A DNA stretch of 32,443 bases from an uncultured bacterium. Its GTDB lineage: Bacteria > Patescibacteriota > Minisyncoccia > Phycocordibacterales > GWA1-40-21. The first letter of the stretch is position 1. Each line of letters begins with the position of its first letter. Made by a program: the position numbers and the translations under genes. The notes beneath the pieces are model-generated. The model was not told where the DNA came from, did not search any database, and worked only from the letters and a program-made list of their open reading frames with translations. This document shows positions 1-24,487 of this stretch, piece after piece. The stretch is taken from assembly GCA_903850545.1 (NCBI GenBank), contig CAINLW010000048.1, positions 1 to 32,443 on the forward strand, read 5' to 3'.

Positions 1-278
1 GGCAACAGAGAAAGAATTGGGTCGAACCCTTGCGGAGTTTCGTTTTGTCCTTGAAACAAGCGGCCGATTTAGAAAAAACTTCCAATCATTTAGAATGGAA
101 GAAGTTTTTTCAGAAAATCGGCTCTAACCCTGAAATCAAGAACAAAACGGTTTCCATACGCTGGGGGGAATTATGGGATTTCGCTATGTCCGCCAAGGGC
201 GGACAAATTTCCGACTATTTTTGTATCGCTTCGCGATACTCTTTTGACCCGACCATTTTTGCCGATGTCTCTACCTGT

Positions 279-1096: not shown

Positions 1097-1265
1097 GTGC
1101 CTGGGGTGGGAAGTTCGACCCTTACAGGGTCAGTATCCCCATTGGATATTTTGTTTCGCTATGCTCGCAAAATATACACAATGGGGCTTCGATTTCCACA
1201 CGAAAGTGCTCCCAGCACTTTCTCCCAGGCACAATAAAAAAACCGCTTTGTGCGGATTTTTTAGT
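1097..1265 (-). other. tRNA-tail-flanked structured element downstream of tRNA-Leu(TAA) (core type B)
   Basis: Direct tail copy 1097-1111 is identical to 1266-1280 (GTGCCTGGGGTGGGA); inverted tail copy is split by hairpin 1202-1222; conserved hairpins at 1146-1175 and 1117-1131 shared with the Cys and Phe units. Confidence 0.7.
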
Positions 1266-1266
1266 G

Positions 1267-1351
1267 TGCCTGGGGTGGGAATCGAACCCACATGATGTTG
1301 CCACCGAGAGATTTTAAGTCTCTAGCGTCTACCAATTTCGCCACCCAGGCA
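1267..1351 (-). tRNA. tRNA-Leu(TAA)
   Basis: TGCCTGG acceptor, anticodon arm AGAGA-CTTAAAA-TCTCT, class II variable arm, T-arm GTGGGTTCGATTCCCAC. Confidence 0.93.
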
Positions 1352-1374: not shown

Positions 1375-1649
1375 TGGGTCCCACCCCAAATCTTAATTAG
1401 GAGAAACGTGATTACGCTTTCGGTCACGAATAATTTGTTCGCCGTCGCTCACAAATTTTCGCTACCCCGACTCGCACCCGATTTTTGCTTAAATCGGACT
1501 TCGTGACTCTTACAGAGTCTGTACACCTGTTCTGTTTTATATTTTGCTATCGCTTATATAAAACTATCACAGGTCTTGCGTTTGGGTCCCAACCCAATCT
1601 CACTCCGTCTTTCGATTCTCCCCGAAACTCACTTCCAGTGAGTTTCTTG
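1375..1649 (-). other. tRNA-tail-associated structured element downstream of tRNA-Cys (core type B, extended)
   Basis: Inverted T-arm copy TTCGATTCTCCCC at 1611-1623 next to 10-bp hairpin 1624-1646; hairpins 1581-1599, 1534-1564, 1505-1519, 1432-1457 match the core motifs at Leu and Phe. Confidence 0.65.
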
Positions 1650-22640: not shown

Positions 22641-22711
22641 GCGAGTGTAGTTTAGTGGTAGAACTGGTGCTTCCCAAGCATCGGGCGAGGGTCCGATTCC
22701 CTCCACTCGCA
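22641..22711 (+). tRNA. tRNA-Gly(CCC)
   Basis: GCGAGTG/CACTCGC acceptor, anticodon loop TTCCCAA, T-arm GAGGGTCCGATTCCCTC. Confidence 0.92.
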
Positions 22712-22851
22712 CAAAAAATTATATATTGCTTTTTATGACCCGTGATATATAATTTAGTTATTAGTAAAATTAATTTAAACCTAAAACATTTTAACCCTAT
22801 AACAAATATTAATTTGTTCGGGCAAAGCAAAATGTTCGGTGAACAAATAAA

Positions 22852-23100
22852 ATGAAAAAAGTAATAATGTATTCAACGCCAACTTGTCACTATTGTAATT
22901 TAGCAAAAGATTTTTTTAATGATTACAATATTCCATTTGAGGTTTATAATGTGCAATCAGACTTGGTAAAAAGAAAAGAAATGGTTGAAAAAAGTGGGCA
23001 AATGGGTGTGCCAGTAATATTTGTAGATGACGAAATGATCGCGGGTTTTGACGAAGAAAAATTAAGAGAACTCTTAGATATTCCAGAACCAGAGATTTAA
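22852..23100 (+). CDS. glutaredoxin family protein
   Basis: MYSTPTCHYCNLAKDFFNDYNIPFEVYNV..MGVPVIFVDDEMIAGFDEEKL. Confidence 0.92.
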   Translation: MKKVIMYSTPTCHYCNLAKDFFNDYNIPFEVYNVQSDLVKRKEMVEKSGQMGVPVIFVDDEMIAGFDEEKLRELLDIPEPEI

Positions 23101-23112
23101 AAAAAAGAGATA

Positions 23113-23142
23113 AAAAACAGGTTATAGAAACCTGTTTTTTTA
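23113..23142 (+). terminator. rho-independent terminator
   Basis: aaaaacaggttatagaaacctgttttttta. Confidence 0.85.
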
Positions 23143-23179
23143 TTGTATTTTTGTGTTATATTTGAGAAGTTGTTCATTT

Positions 23180-23251
23180 GCCTTCGTAGTTCAATGGATA
23201 GAACGATTCCGTCCTAAGGAATTGATGTCGGTTCGATTCCGGCCGAGGGCA
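23180..23251 (+). tRNA. tRNA-Arg(CCT)
   Basis: GCCTTCG/CGAGGGC acceptor, anticodon arm ATTCC-GTCCTAA-GGAAT, T-arm GTCGGTTCGATTCCGGC. Confidence 0.92.
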
Positions 23252-23450
23252 CTATTTTAAAAACACCGTTAAGGTGTTTTTTAAAATAGTGCCCGAGAGT
23301 AAGCAAACTTCTTTGCTTACGCGCCGGAATCGAACAGCGGAATGATGTTCCACAAGCTTGTGGAACGAATGAGCTGGTGCCCAGACAAAGCTGAGTGTCG
23401 ACGAAGCTTTAGTTGAGGGAGAATGCGAAGCGCGTCCGGCCGAGGGTACA
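23252..23450 (+). other. tRNA-tail-flanked structured element downstream of tRNA-Arg (core type A)
   Basis: Spacer hairpin 23251-23290, inverted tail GTGCCC-[hairpin 23299-23320]-GCCGGAATCGAAC, core 23332-23381 with 49/50 identity to 24001-24050, direct tail copy CCGGCCGAGGGTAC 23436-23449. Confidence 0.75.
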
Positions 23451-23489
23451 GAATTGTTATTTTATTAAGATTTTTGATATAATATTCCT

Positions 23490-23753
23490 ATGAATCCAAA
23501 TGAAAACGATTTGTTAAAAAAAACATACGAATTAGCAGAAGAGAACAACCATATTCTCAAGGGTGTTCGAAGTTCAAATAGATGGTCAATGTTTTTTCTA
23601 ATAACAAAATGGGTAGTAATTATTGGTGTCGCGGTTGGAGCGTTTTATTATATTCAACCTTATGTAGATCCATTTTTTAAGGCCTATCAAGATATACAAA
23701 ATAGTTTTGGTAGAGTAAAATCTGTCGTAAATTCTATACCAAAAAACAACTAG
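23490..23753 (+). CDS. hypothetical single-TM protein, 87 aa
   Basis: Plus ORF with TATAAT 6 nt before ATG; TM WVVIIGVAVGAFYYIQPY. Confidence 0.65.
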   Translation: MNPNENDLLKKTYELAEENNHILKGVRSSNRWSMFFLITKWVVIIGVAVGAFYYIQPYVDPFFKAYQDIQNSFGRVKSVVNSIPKNN

Positions 23754-23843
23754 AATTTTTTTAATAAATAGTGTAATATCTCCTATGTGCCCTAAAACAT
23801 TGAATACAGTGTTCGGGCAAACAATTTTAATAAAATTGTTTAA

Positions 23844-23916
23844 GCCAAGGTAGCTCAGTTGGTAGAGCATATCCCTGAAGAGGATGTGGTCGTGGGTTCA
23901 AGTCCCACCCTTGGCA
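23844..23916 (+). tRNA. tRNA-Phe(GAA)
   Basis: GCCAAGG/CCTTGGC acceptor, anticodon loop CTGAAGA, T-arm GTGGGTTCAAGTCCCAC. Confidence 0.93.
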
Positions 23917-24109
23917 CATATTTAAAATCACCCATTTATATGAGTGATTTTAAATATGTGCCAAGGGAACGAGCTGACTGCTCAGCTCGTGTTGGGACTT
24001 GAACAGCGGAATGATGTTCCACAAGCTTGTGGAACAAATGAGCTGGTGCCTAACCCGAAGCGAGTGTCGACGAGCTGAGAGGTGAAGGAAAGATTCCCAC
24101 CCTTGGCAC
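23915..24109 (+). other. tRNA-tail-flanked structured element, Phe unit 1 (core type A)
   Basis: Spacer hairpin 23915-23960, inverted tail split by hairpin 23969-23990, core 24001-24050, direct tail copy TCCCACCCTTGGCAC 24095-24109. Confidence 0.75.
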
Positions 24110-24396
24110 AAAAATAAAACCCCGAACAGGGTGTTTTGTTTTTGTGCCAAGGGAGGAAGCAAATTTCTTTGCTTCTGTTGGGACTTGAAAGACGGAGTAT
24201 GTCGCAAAGCGACTACGAGTCGGGTTGAGGATTGGGTGGGGACCCAACCGAAAGACCTTTTGAGATATTTTATGAGTGTAGCGAAATAAAATATCCAAAA
24301 TGGTGTACTGACCATGTAATGGTCGAGAGTACTTTGGCTTTTGCGAATACTTGAAGCAAAAGACTTAGTAACTCATGACCTAGCCACCCTTGACAC
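24108..24396 (+). other. tRNA-tail-flanked structured element, Phe unit 2 (core type B)
   Basis: Spacer hairpin 24108-24145, inverted tail split by hairpin 24156-24175, hairpins 24230-24248, 24265-24294, 24310-24324 matching the Leu/Cys units, degenerate direct tail CCACCCTTGACAC 24384-24396. Confidence 0.75.
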
Positions 24397-24487
24397 AAAT
24401 GATTTGGCGGTGTTATACTTGATATAATTATAAGAGGTCCAGTCGGCTTTTTGTAAAAATAATATACAAAATTTTAATATAAAATAT

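Follow-up and report, generated by a model that had tools for sequence, protein, structure and literature searches.

tRNA-anchored non-coding units with a structured core: a tRNA-Leu(TAA) locus and its relatives in Patescibacteria

The tRNA-Leu(TAA) locus and further units in the window

The window analyzed here is a stretch of 32,443 nucleotides from the 985-kb draft genome of an uncultured member of the Patescibacteria (G000). Near its left end lies a tRNA-Leu(TAA) gene on the minus strand, directly followed at its 3' end by a unit that is made up in part of copies of the tRNA's own tail, and further units adjoin tRNA-Cys, tRNA-Arg(CCT) and tRNA-Phe. The features are as follows:

1..276, plus: 3' end of a serine-recombinase-type gene that runs into tRNA-Leu(TAG), parting this tRNA from its own unit array (contig C47 of the same genome)
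1097-1265, minus: whole tRNA-Leu(TAA) unit
1097..1112, minus: direct tail copy (3' strand of the T-stem plus acceptor), exact
1117..1131, minus: class B core, hairpin P7 with GUA triloop, covarying in 5/5 pairs
1137..1186, minus: class B core, long hairpin P6, 80% identical to tRNA-Ser units
1188..1199, minus: inverted T-stem and T-loop, matching the tRNA at 11/12 positions
1200..1223, minus: P2 hairpin with linkers (stem 1202-1222, 9 bp, 3-nt loop)
1224..1232, minus: inverted acceptor (5' strand of P1a), matching the tRNA at 9/9 positions
1233..1265, minus: terminator-like palindrome from tRNA-Leu(TAA) to the unit, an inverted repeat
1266..1350, minus: tRNA-Leu(TAA) (ARAGORN, Rfam); its tail, 1266-1281 on the plus strand, is the anchor of the unit
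1611..1646, minus: start of the tRNA-Cys unit, with a hairpin (1624-1646) and the inverted T-stem/T-loop (1611-1623); its core runs toward 1360
1649-1721: tRNA-Cys, with this further unit, which has no inverted acceptor, adjoining
23253..23451, plus: tRNA-Arg(CCT) unit, with palindrome, inverted acceptor (23289-23297), P2 (23298-23322), inverted T-stem/T-loop (23323-23335), class A core (23332-23421) and direct tail (23435-23449)
23918..24109, plus: first tRNA-Phe unit, with class A core (24001-24090) and direct tail (about 24095-24109)
24110..24400, plus: second tRNA-Phe unit, in tandem, with class C/B modules and a decayed direct tail (24384-24397)

The tail of tRNA-Leu(TAA), GTGCCTGGGGTGGGAA (1266-1281), has an exact second copy of 16 nt at 1097-1112, which bears out a repeat that a sequence-only reading of this DNA had placed at 1266-1280 and 1097-1111. 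Between the two copies, the plus strand reads TTCGATTTCCAC (1188-1199), a linker AC, GAAAGTGCTCCCAGCACTTTC (1202-1222), a linker T and CCCAGGCAC (1224-1232). The inverted tail (1188-1232) is, as had been claimed, split at the T-arm/acceptor boundary by a hairpin, here of 9 bp (1202-1222), and departs from the tRNA by a single mismatch, located in the T-stem. The AT-rich spacer hairpin, noted earlier at 1237-1262, is present as 1233-1265 and is fused with the tail into one palindrome with arms at 1224-1246 and 1252-1274. This description can be refined in that the inverted copy takes in the T-loop and the direct copy begins at the T-stem, and in that a structured core, of class B in the Leu unit and absent from the first description, lies between the inverted and the direct copies.

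The rule that this unit had been said to obey holds there and in most full units of this and other genomes, and the hairpin falls at the acceptor/T-stem junction in nearly all tabulated two-armed units. The Leu core is 80% identical over 97 nt to that of a tRNA-Ser(tga) unit on a different contig. The locus, which had been counted as an independent third one, is thus independent in place but not in descent, the loci forming one related family, and given this homology, a formal probability computed for four 'independent' hairpin landings would be misleading. The observation on the Leu unit is therefore confirmed, and the family is larger than first noted.

In the right-hand part of the window, the block of tRNA-Arg(CCT) and tRNA-Phe (22641-24400) is inverted between congeneric species relative to tRNA-Gly(CCC) and the glutaredoxin gene, as seen by comparison with the corresponding loci of two other genomes (L090 of G002 and L122 of G001).

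Anatomy and distribution of the family

Read outward from the tRNA, a full unit consists of the tail, a terminator-like palindromic spacer (often a bidirectional terminator), the inverted acceptor, P2, the inverted T-stem/T-loop, the core and a direct copy, the last composed of the 3' strand of the T-stem and the acceptor. The units are about 115-280 bp in size, non-coding and oriented as the tRNA, begin exactly at the 3' end of the tRNA gene and occur in tandem arrays. The stem of P2 measures 9 bp in 32/54 units and 8-11 bp in 49/54. Among 56 genus-level units, 45 reproduce the T-loop exactly in the inverted arm, even unusual loops such as TGCAAAT and TCCGATT. Of 67 core-defined units, 39 have an exact (12/12) direct copy. 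In core-defined units, the direct copy is preserved at least as well as the inverted arm, and a seemingly better preservation of the inverted arm was put down to detection bias. The core classes, with examples from this genome, are A (P3 and P4; Arg, Phe), B (P6 and P7 with GUA triloop; Leu) and C, and they mix and nest.

The simplest form, found in other classes of the phylum, runs tRNA, P2, inverted T-stem, class A core and tail copy, with neither spacer nor inverted acceptor. As the inverted acceptor and the terminator are frequently absent from distant classes, the long hairpin is not universal. In G000, the tRNA-Arg(tct) unit has lost P2 and its inverted tail is uninterrupted. Two loci showed other kinds of repetition. 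At a contig end, a class A unit is itself repeated in tandem, near-exactly and with a period of about 144 bp (L271; G137:C9:1-1800). On a further contig of G000 (L039; C30), tRNA-Arg(gcg) is followed 3' by two degenerate tRNA-like repeats, GGTTCGATTCCAACTGGAAGCAC and GGTTCGATTCCACATGGGAGCAC, a duplication of a kind unlike the units.

Units stand behind 20/43 tRNA genes of G000, and occupancy across species of one genus is patchy (20/43, 13/28, 13/31 and 1/22). When tRNAs of 15 genomes were searched for the reverse complement of their own T-loop and T-stem (12 nt, at most one mismatch, within 300 nt downstream), it was found for 50 of 188 (27%), as against 1.3% when tails were exchanged between tRNAs, which rules out chance. 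An assembly artefact at repeated tRNA ends, a concern attached to the first reading, is excluded because many other genomes carry homologous units; some contigs of the draft genome do start or stop at or near units or tRNAs, but with the same architecture in many unrelated assemblies, this explanation is scarcely credible.

Class A units were found in 14/30 relatives by DNA search, and a covariance model (E <= 1e-4, strict filters) detected them in 14 genomes of a phylum-wide sample of 295; with this model, the class A core can be found in any genome. In the phylum sample, 17 of the 20 loci read have a same-strand tRNA at most about 400 nt upstream. A pattern scan covered 85,488 species genomes and, among the matches listed, the tRNA-linked ones are almost only from Patescibacteria; matches in Streptomyces and other non-Patescibacteria have no nearby tRNA and were judged to be chance or coding. 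A viral origin was rejected, as the class A pattern is absent from 2.9 million viral contigs. At three loci (L148, L175 and L190), the tRNAs were missed by ARAGORN, apparently because they are interrupted by group I-like introns just 5' of the units, and these loci are thus apparently not tRNA-less 'orphan' units.

Core fold, matched arms and spread

In an alignment of 59 class A sequences, 15 of 20 pairs show double compensatory changes, and the junction nucleotides are conserved. Read in tRNA sense, one-sided changes give G-U 31 times and A-C 5 times, an excess for which the binomial p of about 1e-5 overstates the evidence, since related sequences are treated as independent. The excess should also not be taken as proof of RNA function, because template switching itself can bias wobble pairs. 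Covariation is seen in all five pairs of the class B hairpin P7. All 17 of 17 class A units and 18 of 22 other units fold more stably in tRNA sense than in antisense. Since the tRNA-sense strand also bears the G-U pairs, the alternative of an antisense RNA that shares the tRNA terminator was rejected. For the window and 13 further loci, only tRNA passed the Rfam gathering score, and a relaxed threshold added only chance matches. Judged by these comparisons, the core shows a conserved, covarying fold in the tRNA-sense strand, and the unit probably acts as RNA. As the core is conserved, the RNA would be expected to do something for the element or for the host.

The inverted arms fit the unit's own tRNA and not other tRNAs. 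Cores found at different tRNAs reach up to 80-96% identity while their arms differ, each fitting its own tRNA, and one tRNA can be occupied by different core classes. At orthologous tRNA-Arg(CCT) loci, the acceptor has changed from CGAGGGC to CAGGGAC and the T-stem from CCGGC to CTGGC, and both copies in the unit have changed likewise, in concerted evolution. Where the direct copy deviates from the tRNA, the inverted arm agrees with the tRNA in 8/8 cases of the core-defined set and in 35 of 37 of the genus set. This tracking of the tRNA suggests that the arms are copied from the neighboring tRNA or pair with it. Such inverted copies are known to be made and repaired by template switching during replication (PMC8794818), and the uninterrupted inverted tail of the P2-less tRNA-Arg(tct) unit looks like the outcome of such an event.

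Empty and filled sites with alignable flanks could be paired for tRNA-Lys and tRNA-Met (filled in G001, empty in G002) and for tRNA-His (filled in G000, empty in G005). In all three pairs, the downstream flank of the filled site directly follows the tRNA tail in the empty genome, so that a filled site equals the empty site plus the unit and one tail copy. At tRNA-Lys of G001, where the flanking repeat is 21 bp, the cassette is placed between the tRNA and an older unit, which resembles a newest-first array. In these alignments, the cassette together with one tail copy is present or absent en bloc between sister species, as would be an integrative element with attL/attR-like repeats. Gain is not proven by this, since slippage between the tail repeats could empty sites by loss, and loss by slippage together with core exchange via gene conversion could give the same picture.

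No recombinase gene was found within the units read, which are also too short to hold one. Xer-type recombinases are present in 16/16 genomes tested, with units or without, and the tyrosine recombinase matches, obtained by a search without an IntI-specific model, number one or a few per genome and are Xer-like in size. Large serine recombinases occur in the unit-poor G005 and G013. The unit-bearing G054, a draft of 6 contigs with 4 class A units, has no PF07508 match, and the units were thus rejected as satellites of large serine recombinase elements. More generally, a tyrosine or serine recombinase was rejected as the agent, as its occurrence does not track the units, and so was a reverse transcriptase, as no RVT_1 match was found in G001, G054, G177 or G188, all of which carry units. 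In the Xer-type recombinase of G000 (L283:304-2571, plus, contig C42), the catalytic HxxRH/FATD motif is the insertion site of an intein that bears a LAGLIDADG domain.

Serine recombinase genes do lie at the same tRNA ends. A large one, with Resolvase, Recombinase and Zn-ribbon domains, runs into tRNA-Val(tac) (contig C63, L009:1507-3033, minus), and the product of window positions 1-276 is 32% identical to it over 56 residues. The unit array of tRNA-Leu(tag) is found on contig C47, behind a matching repeat, GCACAGGTAGAGACATC. Displaced arrays, with tails matching tRNA-Leu(tag) and tRNA-Val(tac), lie at about 440-900 of L298 (contig C47) and at about 160-420 of L008 (contig C11), respectively. 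A similar sequence (TTCAAAATAAnTTCG) precedes both, and these preceding sequences are probably the far ends of serine recombinase elements. Such elements use the same tRNA 3' ends and separate tRNAs from their unit arrays, which explains arrays without an adjacent tRNA in this genome; two supposed 'orphan' units of G000 are the displaced arrays of these two tRNAs. Orphan units in other genomes may have been displaced likewise.

Interpretation and relation to known systems

On balance, we favor the reading that the unit is a non-coding integrative cassette that encodes a structured RNA of the tRNA trailer, its arms being maintained in agreement with the host tRNA. The cassette would be transcribed as the 3' trailer of the tRNA, and its inverted arms could pair in two ways: with the tRNA's own tail, forming a single long hairpin that runs through the terminator, or with the direct copy, forming a stem P1 that closes the core. 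Cores would move between tRNAs by recombination or insertion, the candidate agents being Xer, a serine integrase that works in trans and general recombination. The arms would meanwhile be fitted anew to each host tRNA, most probably through palindrome correction, in which a template switch copies the tail next to the unit; selection on the RNA may contribute. A bolder version, to which we give only limited credence, is a non-coding mobile element that writes its arms afresh at every new target, the tail being copied once forward and once backward around P2 and the core, and that spreads via folded RNA or a single strand with no dedicated protein.

The two mutually exclusive stems that share the inverted arm would also suit a host-owned, riboswitch-like switch in tRNA precursors that acts on the upstream tRNA. 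On the tRNA tail, the inverted arm would unfold the tRNA, on the direct copy it would free it, and the core would sense and tip the balance. While the conserved junction nucleotides, the covariation and the arms that track the tRNA instead of the direct copy agree with this, the patchy occupancy within one genus and the different core classes at the same tRNA are unlike conserved regulation, and the inverted acceptor and terminator are missing in distant forms, so that we regard a switch as unlikely. Somewhat less probable still is an integron-like DNA cassette, in which the folded single strand would be the substrate of a tyrosine or serine recombinase in trans, with the arms as R and L boxes and the core as terminal structure, and in which RNA would be irrelevant. 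The attC-like order of boxes (inverted acceptor, spacer hairpin, inverted T-stem, core, T-stem, acceptor), the single orientation of arrays, the position of the G001 tRNA-Lys cassette between the tRNA and an older unit and the use of the same tRNA ends by serine recombinase elements are in its favor. Yet the primary sequence of the core and its junctions are conserved across the phylum, as attC terminal structures are not known to be, and no integrase tracks the units. Finally, tandem duplication and template switching at tRNA terminators, followed by slippage losses, might leave the units as by-products with neither function nor true mobility. Perfect palindromes running through the terminator, the loss of P2 in tRNA-Arg(tct) and empty sites that deletion could explain are consistent with this, but neither a constant P2 nor a covarying, sequence-conserved core across classes of the phylum would be expected, and we consider it improbable.

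In open-access papers, we found no description of such units, and these non-coding cassettes, anchored at tRNA genes and built around a conserved structured core, are apparently a family not described before. If the favored reading is true, a family of structured RNA cassettes that has no name yet is carried by a whole phylum of ultra-small bacteria, whose genomes are otherwise stripped down, and adjoins as many as about half of their tRNA genes. It would then have to be asked how a non-coding element gets tailored to each target, whether tRNA trailers serve as regulatory RNAs in Patescibacteria and how stems remain perfectly complementary to a neighboring gene. Annotators should expect spurious ORFs and partial-tRNA calls within unit blocks.

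Several known systems share some of these properties. Template-switch hairpins in RNA genes (PMC8794818) are similar in that a single event yields an inverted copy without mismatches and can preserve the pairing of stems; this could account for the arms of the units, but not for P2, the core or the block-wise presence and absence. Integrative elements with tyrosine or serine integrases at tRNA 3' ends show the same exact location, direct repeat of the tail, alternation of empty and filled sites and tandem accretion. Unlike these, the units measure only about 115-280 bp, contain no gene and no integrase, include both inverted target copies and a core that is conserved and covaries, and occupy about half of the tRNAs of one genome. 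Integron gene cassettes likewise have inverted boxes (attC) ordered around a terminal structure and form one-orientation arrays beside an anchor. The arms of the units, however, equal the tail of the neighboring tRNA and change with it, no core sites independent of the anchor are seen, the spacer holds a 9-bp hairpin, the core sequence is conserved, and there is neither cargo nor an identified integron integrase. The 3'ETS of E. coli leuZ is a non-coding RNA derived from a tRNA trailer, where it acts as an sRNA sponge at a single locus. The RNA of the units would also derive from the tRNA trailer, whereas the units have tail copies and form a cassette family.
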